Source of the DNA: a virus
DNA length: 22,264 bases
Virus record (IMG/VR): IMGVR_UViG_3300027704_000182
Location: 1-22,264 of that record
Direction: 5' to 3' (one strand)
In this document: piece after piece, positions 1,679 to 15,551 of the stretch
How the letters are laid out: each line of letters begins with the position of its first letter
Position numbering within the stretch: position 1 is the first letter of the stretch
Program-made: the position numbers and the translations under genes
The notes under the pieces: model-generated
What the model was told of the DNA's origin: nothing
Databases searched by the model: none
The model's input: the letters and a program-made list of their open reading frames with translations, nothing else

Positions 1679-2365
1679 ATGAGTGTAACTATTGCTATAA
1701 AGTATCAAAATGATGAGATGGATGTTGTTATTCCAACTCAATGGGAGGATATAACCCTTGAATATTGGACTGAAATATGTTCTATAGTAAACAAGCATAA
1801 AAAAAGTACGGAATTAAAAAAAGAACATCATAGTGAAAAATATTCTGAATCTAATGATTTAGATAGAATACTTGAGGATGTAGAGTTTATAGATAATATA
1901 TCTTTAAATAAGGATATTTTTTGCTTTATGACAGGCCTGAATGATGATGATATGAAAAAGGTAGACTTAGGTCAGGTAAATAAGGTTCTAGAAGCTGTTG
2001 GTATTCTTACTGAAGAATATAAACCTAAAGGAATTAAATCTTTTGACTTAGATGGAGAAACTTATTACTTCCCTTTAGAATCCTTTAGAAAAAATACTTA
2101 CGGAGATTTCATTGAATCTACTCAGCTTGATATGACTATTGAGAACACAAAAAACGGAAGGTTTGATGTTTTGCCTGAGCAGATGGCTATATTATGCAGA
2201 AGGATAGGCGAAGATTATGAAGAAGAAGATATACCTGAAAAAACTAAAAATTTCAAAAAATTAACTATGGACATTGTATATGAGTTCGCTTTTTTTTTGA
2301 CCATTCAAAGCAACAAGTTGCTAAAAATTTCCAATATGTATTTGGAGAAAAAAGAGAAGGAATGA
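1679..2365 (+). CDS. Tail assembly chaperone, short (unshifted) product
   Basis: Probable tail assembly chaperone, analogous to lambda gpG: it would bind the tape measure and recruit tube subunits without entering the virion. The N-terminus (VVIPTQWEDITLEYWTEI, residues 16-33) followed by a segment with an Asp-rich TGLNDDD motif (85-91) is a pattern I associate with tail chaperones of Bacteroidota phages. The strongest support is its 3' end. A run of nine T (2290-2298) lies where the -1 frame has just become open (a -1-frame TGA is at 2281-2283), and that frame stays open through the next gene to 2601. This is the classic chaperone frameshift arrangement. Unlike lambda, the tape measure is about 8.5 kb downstream. 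The unshifted product has 228 residues and ends in a Lys/Glu-rich helix. Confidence 0.65.
   Translation: MSVTIAIKYQNDEMDVVIPTQWEDITLEYWTEICSIVNKHKKSTELKKEHHSEKYSESNDLDRILEDVEFIDNISLNKDIFCFMTGLNDDDMKKVDLGQVNKVLEAVGILTEEYKPKGIKSFDLDGETYYFPLESFRKNTYGDFIESTQLDMTIENTKNGRFDVLPEQMAILCRRIGEDYEEEDIPEKTKNFKKLTMDIVYEFAFFLTIQSNKLLKISNMYLEKKEKE
2290..2322 (+). other. Probable programmed -1 frameshift site (T9 slippery run plus hairpin)
   Basis: Nine consecutive T at 2290-2298 read in the zero frame as T TTT TTT TTG, a perfect X XXY YYZ slippery heptamer. A 5-bp stem with a CAAG tetraloop (AGCAA/TTGCT, 2309-2322) starts about ten bases after the run and could act as a stimulator. A -1 slip at 2290-2296 joins the first 206 chaperone residues to 101 residues of the -1 frame, giving about 307 residues and skipping the stop at 2363-2365. 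Known family logic: many long-tailed phages make two overlapping chaperones this way. Confidence 0.7.
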
Positions 2366-2601
2366 TGGCTATAAAAACAAAAGGACTTTACAATATATAT
2401 ATAAAGCCTTTTGGATGGCTTAACAGCTTGTATGTTCTTGCAGAGAAGGGAATATTCCAAATAGAAGGAATGAATGGAATAGATAGCGTTAAAAACACTA
2501 ATCTATACAAGGTAATGACTTATTTAAGTTGGATAACAGCTAAAAATGAGTATGAATCAAAGGTTAGTGAGAAAATTTCTAATCCAAATAAAGTAAGTTA
2601 A
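2362..2601 (+). CDS. Tail assembly chaperone frameshift extension (T-like domain)
   Basis: The 79-residue reading frame from ATG 2362 overlaps the stop of the preceding gene (ATGATGG), but its frame is open back to 2284. The codons upstream of the ATG (DHSKQQVAKNFQYVFGEKRE, 2299-2358) look like ordinary protein continuous with what follows. I therefore read it mainly as the C-terminal part of a -1 frameshifted chaperone (lambda G-T type), with tryptophan- and tyrosine-containing helices (KPFGWLNSLYVLAEKGIF; YKVMTYLSWITAKNEYESK). In lambda the T domain contacts tail tube subunits. Independent translation from the double ATG at 2362/2365 cannot be excluded. It is followed 4 bp later by the next virion gene. 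Confidence 0.65.
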   Translation: MMAIKTKGLYNIYIKPFGWLNSLYVLAEKGIFQIEGMNGIDSVKNTNLYKVMTYLSWITAKNEYESKVSEKISNPNKVS

Positions 2602-10896: not shown

Positions 10897-13800
10897 ATGG
10901 CATTAAAAAGTAAGGTAGCGATAGAGGTAGTAATCAAAGACATTAAAAAGATTGCTGACTTAAAAAAGGGATTAAAAGAGTTAAGAGCAGAGCAGAAAAA
11001 ACAAGAAAAAGAATCTAAAACAGGACAATTTCAGTCTAAAGCAAGTGCAAAAGCATACAAAGAAAGAGCAAAGGCAATAAAAGAAAACTCAAAAACATTG
11101 AGGAATCTTAATAAGGATATGGCAGGTGCCAATAAGTCTACAAAAGATATTACTAAATCATCTAATGGAATGGCAAAGCAATTTATCAAAGGTGCTGCTG
11201 CTATTGGTATTGTAGTTGGTGCTTTTAGAGCTATAAACAGAGTTGTTAGTTCAGTTGTAAGTACATTTTCTGACTTTGAATTTGTTATGGCTAAAGTCAA
11301 TGCAGTTTCAGGTGCAACAGAATCAGAATTTTCAGCACTAACAAAATCAGCAGAGGATTTAGGTCGTTCAACATTCTTTACTGCTACACAAGTTGGAGAA
11401 TTACAATTAGCATATTCTAAATTAGGATTTACAGCACAAGAGATACTAGATGCTACTGAGGCAACTCTTGATTTAGCTACTGCAACAGGAACCGATTTAG
11501 CTAGAGCTGCTCAGGTGGCAGGTGCTTCTATCAGGGGATTTCAATTAGATGCTAGTGAGGCAGGTAGAGTTGTAGATGTTATGGCTGTTGCGTTTTCAAG
11601 TTCAGCATTAGATATTGAGAAGTGGAATACAAGTATGACTAAGGTTGCTCCTATTGCAGCTATGGCAGGATTTGAAATAGAGGAAGTCGCTGCTATTATG
11701 GGTAAGCTTTCTGATACAGGTATTGAGGCTTCTATTGCAGGTACATCTTTAAGGAATATATTCCTTAAAATGCAAGACCCTTCATCAAAGTTATCCAAAA
11801 CATTAGGTCATACGATAACAAATTTAGATGAAATGTTAATAGCATTTAAAGGACTACAAGATGAGGGTACTGACCTTACTGATGTTCTTGGTTTTATGGA
11901 TATTAGACAGGTAGCTGCGTTTTCTACTATGTTAGAGGGTTCTGATGATATTGCTACACTTAGAGATAATCTTCTTCTAGCTACAGGGGAGGGGGATAGA
12001 ATGGCAGATATGGTTGGAGATACATTGCAGGGTGCTTTCTTAAAATTCAAATCTGCAGTTGAAGGAGTTTCTATTAGCGTTATGAAAAACTTTGGTAAAG
12101 CTCTTACCAAGACAGTAGCTAATATGGCTAAACTCATGAATTCATTTGTAGAAAATGAAGGTTCTGTAAAGAAATTTACTGATGGTTTGATTACTCTTGG
12201 AAACATAATAAAGAAGGGAGTAGCATTATTCCTTTCTTATAAGATAGGTATAATTGCAGCAGGTGTAGCTACAAAAGCAATGACAGGTCTTTTGTATTTA
12301 CAAGCGTTTGGAATGGAAGCAGTTACTTTAGTTACAGGTAAGGCTACGGTAGCAATGAGGTCATTCGGTAAGGCTATGGCTAAGACAGGAGTAGGACTGT
12401 TAGTATTAGCAGTTATTGACTTAGTTTTCTATATGAATTCTTTTAACGAATCTGCTCAAGATGCCATTAATTTTACAGATGGTGTTTCAAAATCAACTAA
12501 AGATTTACAGAGTAAAGTAAAAACCTTAGATGAGTGGGAAAGAAAATTAATTGAATCAAGAAAGGTACAAAACAGATTATTAAACTCTGAAGGTAAGCTG
12601 ATGGATGAAAGTGCAGAAAATGCATATAAACTAAAAGAAGCTAAAAATATAGAAACAAGAGCAATCCAAAATCTAAATAAAGAGCTTAAATTAGAGGGGG
12701 ATGAGTTATTATCTGTTAAGGATAAAACTGAAGATGTTATTACTGCAATGAATAAACTTACTAAAAAAGTAGGGGAAAATGCATTGGCTAAATTATTTCT
12801 AGAGCAAGAAACACAGATAATAAAGACTAAAGTAAATGCAGAACAAGCTATAGCAGAACTTAACAAAGCTATGGGTGGAGGAAAGTCAGATGAAGCTATT
12901 ATTGGATTTATTAAAAGAGTTAAAGATGTTCAGGGTGGTTTTGGGATGTGGATGCACGAAATAGTTGGCTTCTTTGGTGGAGATACTCCTACTGAGAAGG
13001 CAAATAAAATTATACTAGGAATAATGGATAAGTACAGCTTAACTCTAGGTACTTTAATTGATGCAAGTGGAGAAAATTATATAGATAAGCAAACTACATT
13101 ATTAACAAATTCAATAGAAAAAGCTGCAAGTAAGCTTGATATAGGAGATTTTAAATTAGAAGATGCTTTAGCTGATTTAGAACCTGAAACAGAAGAAGGA
13201 AAGAATCAAAAGAAGTCAGCTCAGTTTGAAATGAACGAGAAGATATCAATAAGAAAGGAGGGGTTATCAAAATTATTACTAGAGGAAAAGGCATATCAAA
13301 AGGCATTACTACAGGCTAATATTGATGGAGTGCAAGACTATTTAGACCAAGAAAATAATAAGGATGAAGGCATAACTGCAGCTAATATTAAGATGAATGA
13401 TTTAATAAGAAAGCAGAACGCTCAATTCAGAGCAGAAGAATTACAAGACAGAAGGGATTTAGCTAATGATGACTTAAATATAGCACAAGAAAGTTACATA
13501 GATAAGGTAGATAGTTTACTTGTTTACCAAATCAATGTAAACAAGATAAACAAAGAATTACTAGAAGATGAGTTTAAGCTTCTAACAGAGCAGGAGAGAT
13601 TAGGAAAAGAAGGGATAGAAATACAGAAAAAATTACTAACACTTGAGCTTCAATTAACAAAAATAAACTCATCCGAAAAGGAAAGGCTTCTTAAAGAAGA
13701 ATTTAATGATAAGGTTCTTGCTCTTGAATTAGAGCAATCAACTACTATGATGAATAAGATAGAGTTTGATAATCGTATGCTTTCTTTGGAATTTGATTAC

Positions 13801-14682
13801 CTAATGGCAAGAAAGGGTTTATACGAAAAAGGTGCTTTGGAATTGATTGATATTAACAATGGTATTCTTGCAAATAATGTTGATGTTAATGAGAAACAAA
13901 AACAACTAATGCAAGAGCAGATTTCGGCTTATGGTGGAGTTGGTAGTGCATTAACAACATTAGCAGGGGATAATGAGAGATTAAATGCAGTAAAAGAGGT
14001 GGGTAACGCTATATCTGAAGCGGCAAATATAATTTCTACCATAACAACTTTAAAAGAGAATTTAAGTACAATAGCTAAGGTTGGTAAGACAGGGGCAATA
14101 ATATCCGAATCGGCAGCAATAGCAGTTCAAACTCCTTTAATATTTGCAAACACAGCAGCAGAAACTATTAGTATAGGGCCAAAAATAGCATCAGGTGCTG
14201 CAGGTCAGGCTAAACTACCATTTCCTTTGAATCTTATTGCAGTCATTGCTACATTAGCATTATTATCTAAGATAATGGGTTCATTTGCAGATGGTGGAAT
14301 AGTAGAAGGCAAGTATGAGGTTGGAGGATTAATTAGTGATGGTAAATTTGCTAACGGAGGAATGGTGCAAGGCAAATCACACGCACAAGGTGGAGAGAAG
14401 TTTGCAGTAGGTGGTAGGGTGGTTGAATTGGAAGGAGGAGAGGCTGTAATCAATAAAAAAAGCACAGCTATGTATAGGGGTCAGTTATCTCAAATGAACG
14501 CAGCAGGAGGGGGTGTTAAGTTTGCTGATGGAGGCTTACTAAATAGCCCTCAGTTTGCTAATCAACAATTTACTTCAGGTTTAAATCAGGATAGAAATTC
14601 ACAAAGGGTATTTGTGGTTGAATCAGATATAACTAATAGCCAAAGAACAGTAGGGATTCTTGAGGCTAATGCAACTATTTAA
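10897..14682 (+). CDS. Tail tape measure protein
   Basis: 1261 residues, the longest gene in the window. N-terminal Lys/Glu-rich coiled coil (about 10-95), then a phage minor-tail/tape-measure domain (about 125-345) with the signature run FEFVMAKVNAVSGAT, STFFTATQVGELQLAYSKLGF and MTKVAPIAAMAGFEIEEVAA. Hydrophobic helices follow (about 430-515), then long Lys/Glu/Leu-rich coiled coils (about 530-1010), a second hydrophobic segment (about 1105-1127) and a Gly-rich tail with ADGGIVEG, GKSHAQGGEKFAVGG and LEGGEAVINKKS motifs typical of Bacteroidota phage tape measures. It sets tail length and is thought to help DNA cross the membranes. Using the common rule of about 0.15 nm per residue, the tail would be about 180-190 nm (inference). 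Role secure. Confidence 0.95.
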   Translation: MALKSKVAIEVVIKDIKKIADLKKGLKELRAEQKKQEKESKTGQFQSKASAKAYKERAKAIKENSKTLRNLNKDMAGANKSTKDITKSSNGMAKQFIKGAAAIGIVVGAFRAINRVVSSVVSTFSDFEFVMAKVNAVSGATESEFSALTKSAEDLGRSTFFTATQVGELQLAYSKLGFTAQEILDATEATLDLATATGTDLARAAQVAGASIRGFQLDASEAGRVVDVMAVAFSSSALDIEKWNTSMTKVAPIAAMAGFEIEEVAAIMGKLSDTGIEASIAGTSLRNIFLKMQDPSSKLSKTLGHTITNLDEMLIAFKGLQDEGTDLTDVLGFMDIRQVAAFSTMLEGSDDIATLRDNLLLATGEGDRMADMVGDTLQGAFLKFKSAVEGVSISVMKNFGKALTKTVANMAKLMNSFVENEGSVKKFTDGLITLGNIIKKGVALFLSYKIGIIAAGVATKAMTGLLYLQAFGMEAVTLVTGKATVAMRSFGKAMAKTGVGLLVLAVIDLVFYMNSFNESAQDAINFTDGVSKSTKDLQSKVKTLDEWERKLIESRKVQNRLLNSEGKLMDESAENAYKLKEAKNIETRAIQNLNKELKLEGDELLSVKDKTEDVITAMNKLTKKVGENALAKLFLEQETQIIKTKVNAEQAIAELNKAMGGGKSDEAIIGFIKRVKDVQGGFGMWMHEIVGFFGGDTPTEKANKIILGIMDKYSLTLGTLIDASGENYIDKQTTLLTNSIEKAASKLDIGDFKLEDALADLEPETEEGKNQKKSAQFEMNEKISIRKEGLSKLLLEEKAYQKALLQANIDGVQDYLDQENNKDEGITAANIKMNDLIRKQNAQFRAEELQDRRDLANDDLNIAQESYIDKVDSLLVYQINVNKINKELLEDEFKLLTEQERLGKEGIEIQKKLLTLELQLTKINSSEKERLLKEEFNDKVLALELEQSTTMMNKIEFDNRMLSLEFDYLMARKGLYEKGALELIDINNGILANNVDVNEKQKQLMQEQISAYGGVGSALTTLAGDNERLNAVKEVGNAISEAANIISTITTLKENLSTIAKVGKTGAIISESAAIAVQTPLIFANTAAETISIGPKIASGAAGQAKLPFPLNLIAVIATLALLSKIMGSFADGGIVEGKYEVGGLISDGKFANGGMVQGKSHAQGGEKFAVGGRVVELEGGEAVINKKSTAMYRGQLSQMNAAGGGVKFADGGLLNSPQFANQQFTSGLNQDRNSQRVFVVESDITNSQRTVGILEANATI

Positions 14683-14920: not shown

Positions 14921-15241
14921 ATGGACTACAGCTCAATAATTAAAGGTTACACAGAAGAAAAAAAAGATTTAATCGTTCAAATGGCTAAGTCAAATAAGGC
15001 AGATATTGGTTTACATAACCTGTATAACAATGCAGCGTTAGGTTTATTTTTTAGACTATGGGCAGAACACTTCCCAAATATAAAACAGGAAATTTCCTGT
15101 AAAGGTTGCAGGGACTCAGTTTGTAAATTCTTTCATAATATAGCTGATTTTATTTCTAGTCAAAGATTAGCAAAGTTAGATGAATTTAAAGAGATTACAG
15201 GCAAAACCAAAAAATCTAAAAAATCTAAATCTAATGTCTAG
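14921..15241 (+). CDS. Hypothetical protein, 106 aa
   Basis: I do not recognise this protein. Mainly helical, with a central IKQEISCKGCRDSVCKFFHN segment (55-74) holding C60, C63 and C68, which could be a small metal or disulfide site, and a Lys/Ser-rich C-terminus (KTKKSKKSKSNV). The start is preceded by taataataatATG. The 3' end overlaps the start of the next gene by 8 bp (ATGTCTAG), which suggests coupled translation. It sits in a three-gene cluster of small proteins between the tape measure and the head module, so a role in morphogenesis or its control is possible but not shown. Confidence 0.7.
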   Translation: MDYSSIIKGYTEEKKDLIVQMAKSNKADIGLHNLYNNAALGLFFRLWAEHFPNIKQEISCKGCRDSVCKFFHNIADFISSQRLAKLDEFKEITGKTKKSKKSKSNV

Positions 15242-15551
15242 GCAAAATAAGTCTGATATAGTTTACGAGTATATTTTGTTAGCTGAATCTGAAATAAAAA
15301 AAAGATGGAGTGAGCCAACTACTGTTGATGTTTTAAGACATCTTACAGAAAGAGGAATAGTAGAGCCAAAAAGATTAAGGAATTATATGATAATATATGA
15401 TTTTGATTGTATGCTTAGGTTCAATGAGGGAAATAGAACTCATACTTTTATGGACTTATCTATAAAATATGATATATCAGAAAGACAGGCTCAAAGCATA
15501 GTTTACAAAGAAAGAATCAAAGAAAGAGCTACTGTAAATATCACTTATTAG
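15234..15551 (+). CDS. Small helix-turn-helix protein (regulator or DNA-binding factor)
   Basis: 105 residues from ATG 15234. An earlier in-frame ATG (15180) lies deep inside the upstream gene and would add only an unlikely Lys/Leu/Asn-rich leader, so the ATG in the 8-bp stop overlap is preferred. Residues about 72-95 (FMDLSIKYDISERQAQSIVYK) read as a helix-turn-helix like that of Mor-type or other small DNA-binding proteins. No other domain is seen. It is the last gene before a 55-bp gap that holds a possible promoter for the head genes, so it could be a late regulator; a small-terminase-like DNA-binding role is an alternative, although the large subunit is 15 kb away. Confidence 0.65.
   Translation: MSRQNKSDIVYEYILLAESEIKKRWSEPTTVDVLRHLTERGIVEPKRLRNYMIIYDFDCMLRFNEGNRTHTFMDLSIKYDISERQAQSIVYKERIKERATVNITY

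Follow-up and report, generated by a model that had tools for sequence, protein, structure and literature searches.

Genes and features at the locus

The window is a virus record of 22,264 bases. It opens with a terminase ORF (1-1200), followed by an ORF of 136 aa (1266-1676) and then by a zero-frame ORF that overlaps, around a run of nine Ts (T9), an ORF in the -1 frame. The features of the site, together with the probable partner gene, are:

1679-2365, + strand: zero-frame ORF (N protein, 228 aa), conserved in 124 distinct relatives; proposed gpG-like chaperone
2268-2272, + strand: 5′ arm of the upstream hairpin, TGGAC; found with RNAalifold, five pairs in 52/52 variants
2284-2288, + strand: 3′ arm of the upstream hairpin, GTTCG, one base short of the T run; same evidence as the 5′ arm
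2284-2601, + strand: -1 frame ORF (C domain, about 100 aa past the run), under purifying selection from the run on
2290-2298, + strand: T9 run, with T_TTT_TTT in the zero phase at 2290-2296; nine Ts in 124/124 distinct relatives
2298-2300, + strand: +1-frame stop TGA, read after loss of one T; TGA in 116 and TAA in 8 of 124 relatives
2362-2364, + strand: ATG overlapping the zero-frame stop (ATGA), possibly an extra independent start for C in the window's lineage
10897-14682, + strand: tape measure protein, the probable partner; matches PF10145 (1.6e-34) and PHROG tape-measure families

N and the N-C fusion have residues 1-206 in common, the last 22 residues of N forming a zero-frame tail, and the zero-frame codons at the run are GCT TTT TTT TTG ACC. 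The -1 frame is shut by a TGA at 2281-2283 and is thereafter open to the stop that ends at 2601; its first ATG past the run is that at 2362, and the zero-frame TGA occupies 2363-2365. The positions of the run, of the TGA and of the -1 frame, and the perfect heptamer, had been given in a preliminary description of the window and were all verified, and its estimate of about 8.5 kb between the site and the tape measure gene agrees with the ~8.6 kb measured from the run to the ORF at 10897.

Gene order in the window looks unusual, in that the terminase, the proposed chaperone, tail-type genes and the tape measure gene precede ORFs for a ClpP-like protease, a capsid-like and a portal-like protein (these three labelled by eye from their sequences). 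Two ORFs in different frames, 14921-15241 and 15180-15551, share 62 bases. An A-rich element, ACTTCTAG..TAATA..A8-9..TCATATAATTGCGAAA, lies within 1200-1265, after the terminase stop and ahead of the following ORF. Many relatives have it too, some 1,080 bases upstream of the run, and it may be a promoter or a processing signal. ORF 1266-1676 has an A9 close to its 3′ end (1645-1653), seen at a similar distance in several relatives, which could be a second slippage site.

Conservation of the T run

We collected 124 distinct junctions of the main lineage (family 1) from viral-contig searches with the N and C proteins and from the alignments of these. The run is exactly nine Ts long in all 124, at N identities to the window as low as ~45% (among the first 92 junctions), and the motifs used for alignment scans lie far from the run, so that the searches did not select for T9. 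Composition by itself would say little in this AT-rich window, where three T9 runs are seen on both strands against 3.2 expected by chance; the run is judged non-random because of the comparison across relatives. On the plus strand of the same loci (1.01 Mb), three other T9 runs occur outside the site and none longer. Past the run, the -1 ORF extends for 100-106 aa in all relatives bar one entry (60 aa), while the zero-frame tail varies in length from 66 to 138 nt.

A second, divergent lineage

Sequence searches of annotated phages gave no close relative. A second lineage (family 2) was reached only through a fold search with an AlphaFold2 model of N (built with 50 sequences; mean pLDDT 79), whose matches in BFVD are uncharacterised phage proteins, including one of the cultured Nonlabens phage P12024S. 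Family 2 includes P12024S and its close relative P12024L along with hundreds of aquatic viral contigs. In P12024S the homologous N gene adjoins the terminase gene, T9 is found at 23578-23586, and the -1 frame runs on into the C domain, which the annotation lists as a hypothetical protein of its own. Profiles of N from both families align with an hhalign probability of 95.5% (E 1.4e-8), the alignment reaching the slip site, and by this profile comparison the N genes of both lineages are homologous; for the C domains the alignment is suggestive. The run starts at codon position 2 in family 2 versus position 3 in family 1.

T9 was found in the first 63 family-2 loci except for one T10, and in 78/78 further distinct sequences, although some family-2 search motifs included FFYHL and were thereby biased towards a T run without requiring one. 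The slip site is kept among the relatives, with T9 in 124/124 of family 1 and 78/78 of family 2, and no homolog lacking a slippery run, which the preliminary description had named as a refutation of its proposal, was found among them. The sole T10 of family 2 (locus L270, near 2970) results from an adjacent substitution that lengthened the run and left the frame unchanged. Phase variation of the run at the DNA level was considered and ruled out, a length other than nine having been met once, as this T10, in well over 200 sequences. Flavobacterium phage 6H (locus L258, 10352-10927, minus strand) encodes a probable fold relative of N, and the unannotated gap after it contains a C-like ORF; the frames at this junction do not connect simply.

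Among annotated phages the nearest terminase is that of Croceibacter phage P2559Y (42%), and together with P12024S it would point to a flavobacterium as the host. The hosts of these aquatic phages are probably Bacteroidota; a search of genome contigs found no host proviruses.

Coding in both frames past the run

Constraint was measured in 61 sister pairs, with the overlap taken as +4 to +63 past the run. The -1 frame there has 159 amino-acid changes against 229 expected (sd 6.3), and the zero frame 163 against 209 (sd 6.4). On the 5′ side of the run the -1 frame is unconstrained (879 changes, 758 expected) and the zero frame strongly constrained (319 changes, 767 expected). Since the -1 frame is constrained in the overlap, the segment between the run and ATG 2362 is conserved. 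The residues encoded there had earlier been thought to look like real protein; similarity extends upstream of ATG 2362, where its loss would have spoken against a joined product.

Of the 123 scorable relatives, 89 lack an ATG in the -1 frame ahead of the conserved P[FY]GW core, and 67 lack ATG, GTG and TTG alike; in these 67, expression of the core therefore requires a change of frame. Judged from sequence comparison, the two ORFs are fused by a programmed shift into the -1 frame, as the preliminary description proposed for these T9-linked frames. The locus is a real, strongly conserved recoding site: the event is of a known kind, its signal is unusual, and the level of control is plausibly new. 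The relatives without start codons before the core rule out internal initiation as the only way to make C; in the window's own lineage, some separate C protein alongside the fusion is possible.

RNA structure around the run

Wobble bases just 5′ of the run are fixed (GAG in 89/92 relatives, TTC in 91/92), TTC accounting for 13% of the Phe codons in the N gene. RNAalifold places a stem TGGAC/GTTC[AG] here, one base short of the run, with all five pairs present in 52/52 distinct variants of the main lineage. The segment folds better than after synonymous recoding in 42 of 50 representatives (p<0.05), at a mean of -3.22 versus -0.44 kcal/mol when recoded with the protein kept, and control windows along the gene have no such excess. 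The hairpin is weak (about -0.5 to -6 kcal/mol) and its covariation thin: one pair varies (C-G, U-G, U-A), with two compensated variants, and the covariation score was matched by 51 of 500 shuffles. Family 2 gave no signal for it. A hairpin directly 5′ of U9 is placed like the nascent-RNA hairpins through which RNA polymerase is affected, and its geometry is terminator-like. As a check for an internal Shine-Dalgarno sequence, GGAG was found upstream in 77/92 relatives, the window having only GAG.

On the downstream side, the preliminary description had pointed to a short hairpin at 2309-2322 as a stimulator. It is present in the window but is not conserved, 10 of 124 relatives keeping five pairs and 81 just one, and its proposed role lapses with it: over 50 family-1 representatives no general downstream structure was detected, folding being no better than shuffled (mean z -0.42). 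The window's own 2299-2420 folds with z -3.1. This check covered local structure; a search of Rfam gave no match.

Three readings in which the frame change is absent or secondary can be weighed against these results. Homopolymers are prone to sequencing error, so that the real run might be T10 and the gene one continuous frame; yet well over 200 contigs, drawn from many metagenomes, have the same T9, as do the GenBank entries of P12024S and P12024L, and the zero-frame tail is itself under constraint, leaving assembly or sequencing error hardly credible. The locus might instead comprise two genes, C being translationally coupled through the ATGA overlap and starting at ATG 2362, in which case the open -1 frame ahead of that ATG would be accidental. 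In the window and its close relatives that ATG does overlap the zero-frame stop, and the cultured relatives are annotated as two ORFs (P12024S_38/_39), but the constraint on the -1 frame from the run on and the many relatives lacking an ATG (89/123), or any of the three start codons (67/123), before the core make separate genes very unlikely. Finally, the hairpin and T9 could form a weak terminator or pause site that governs how the tail genes downstream are transcribed, the joining of frames being secondary. The hairpin is indeed followed at once by a U9 tract; however, it is weak and missing from family 2, and the -1 frame is clearly coding, often without a start, so that we consider a terminator highly improbable as the explanation of the site.

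Mechanism of the frame change

The reading that we prefer is that one start gives two overlapping proteins, N (228 aa) and a minor N-C fusion of ~307 aa, through slippage of the host RNA polymerase on T9, and that the pair would act as a gpG/gpGT-like chaperone; we give this whole explanation a probability of about 0.58. Slipping on the nine-T tract, the polymerase would produce transcripts with one extra U or two fewer, and standard translation of either would enter the -1 frame. Gain of one U would give ..E-F-A-F-F-F-D.. across the junction, the same product as a -1 ribosomal slip, and loss of two Us the same protein one Phe shorter. Transcripts that lose one U would end at once on the +1-frame TGA/TAA. 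In the main lineage alone, the nascent-RNA hairpin beside the tract probably tunes slippage. We infer both this role of the hairpin and the status of the fusion as the minor product.

Runs of nine A or T are slippage sites in bacterial transcription, and a nascent stem-loop beside the tract stimulates slippage by bacterial RNA polymerase (PMC5009743); the E. coli enzyme prefers poly(T), with insertion exceeding deletion in the transcript data of the paper concerned (PMC6260861). The tract here is likewise a homopolymer of about nine, of fixed length, as is characteristic of slippage tracts for bacterial RNA polymerase. A hairpin directly 5′ of the tract, as in Roseiflexus, is found in family 1 only, its stimulation being putative. 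T9 is kept in both codon phases, although a ribosomal heptamer requires just seven Ts; those superfluous to the heptamer (positions 8-9 in family 1, 1 and 9 in family 2) are invariant. Ordinary long ORFs of these genomes contain 40 in-phase T7 runs (T_TTT_TTT), and hence the heptamer by itself is no dedicated signal. A +1-frame stop directly past the run in 124/124 relatives, the adjacent upstream hairpin and the failure to find a downstream stimulator also speak for the polymerase. Against it, every T9 holds T_TTT_TTT, so that a ribosomal slip would yield the same protein; coding constraint in the two overlapping frames may be what keeps the extra Ts, and the +1 stops are partly dictated by the other two frames; the hairpin is weak, absent from family 2 and thin in covariation; and the known stem-loop case (the Roseiflexus IS) is a deletion, not an insertion.

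The same N-C fusion would arise by -1 programmed ribosomal frameshifting at T_TTT_TTT (2290-2296), as in lambda G/GT, with the upstream hairpin tuning the efficiency of the shift, probably lowering it. Every member has a perfect zero-phase heptamer, and long-tailed phages as a rule make G/GT by ribosomal frameshifting (PMC5009743). In the Bacteroidota phages RAP44 and PJN03, two small ORFs lie upstream of the tape measure gene, and A_AAT_TTT occurs close to where the first one ends. An attenuating hairpin would also have a precedent in SARS coronavirus, where a natural stem-loop 4 nt 5′ of the site is reported to attenuate -1 shifting, and G/GT wants low efficiency. In E. coli, however, A_AAA_AAG shifts better than U_UUU_UUU, no downstream stimulator was found and the hairpin at 2309-2322 is not conserved, and the site always has nine Ts, in two phases, where seven would suffice and where 40 in-phase T7 occur elsewhere. 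We therefore regard the ribosome as a somewhat unlikely agent of the shift, and favour with some confidence, from the sequence patterns just given, slippage of RNA polymerase on T9. Transcript slippage, mentioned in the preliminary description as another way to the same product, is thus favoured by the exact nine Ts in two phases and the upstream hairpin.

Proposed function of N and N-C

That N and N-C are a G/GT-like pair of tail-assembly chaperones seems to us quite probable from gene anatomy: a two-ORF pair fused in -1 lies in a structural block that also encodes a tape measure protein, and the C domain is small and helical in a predicted model of moderate confidence. As for lambda gpG/gpGT, N would bind the tape measure protein and N-C would recruit the tail-tube protein. 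The function had been suggested at the outset; the anatomy fits, but profile and fold searches of Pfam, NCBIfam, PHROG and PDB gave no chaperone or other informative match. The usual, though not universal, place of G/GT is directly before the tape measure gene, whereas the pair here is near the terminase, ~8.6 kb upstream; the P12024S pair likewise adjoins the terminase and is remote from the tape measure gene. Elsewhere among Bacteroidota phages, two small ORFs ahead of the tape measure gene carry A_AAT_TTT (RAP44, PJN03) or A10 (Cellulophaga phage phi17:1). The latter, at 27807-27816 of locus L324, lies where the two small ORFs overlap in -1 and may be another homopolymer-based site.

The ratio of G to GT chaperones is the textbook product of programmed ribosomal frameshifting. 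We see about even odds that a very large group of aquatic phages sets its chaperone ratio instead by polymerase slippage on an invariant T9, tuned by a hairpin in one lineage. If true, this would be the first case, as far as searches show, of a phage setting a tail-assembly ratio during transcription, and a parallel to the length regulators of type III secretion. Our search of the open-licence literature for tail chaperones together with transcriptional slippage found no report of such a site, which is weak evidence of absence. Annotation of these abundant phages currently splits one conserved gene into two "hypothetical" ORFs. P12024S and P12024L offer a cultured test system.

Comparison with known systems

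The closest cultured counterparts are P12024S and P12024L (P12024S_38 and _39), which share N directly past the terminase, T9, and the C domain in the -1 frame. They differ in being very divergent, in a run that starts from codon position 2 and in having no conserved upstream hairpin, and their genes are annotated as two hypothetical proteins.

With lambda gpG/gpGT the locus has in common an overlapping ORF pair in the structural block, a -1 shift near the end of the first ORF, a small C domain and a tape measure gene within that block. It differs in its T9 homopolymer, which replaces the typical X_XXY_YYZ site, and in its position near the terminase, 8.6 kb from the tape measure gene that the lambda-type pair directly precedes. 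It also differs from known chaperones in having no sequence or fold match to them.

The nascent RNA stem-loop directly 5′ of a slippage tract is shared with Roseiflexus IS630. There, T5C5 and a strong GC stem lead to a one-base deletion, whereas here T9 is paired with a weak stem and the change needed is +1 or -2. Shigella mxiE (a tract of more than 8 Ts) and Thermus dnaX (A9) resemble the locus in that a homopolymer of about nine A or T opens another frame, and Thermus dnaX also in the stops placed in unwanted frames. Unlike these two, the T9 described here lies in a structural-block gene of a very large and divergent phage group, where slippage is putative and where, in one lineage, a hairpin stands beside the run.
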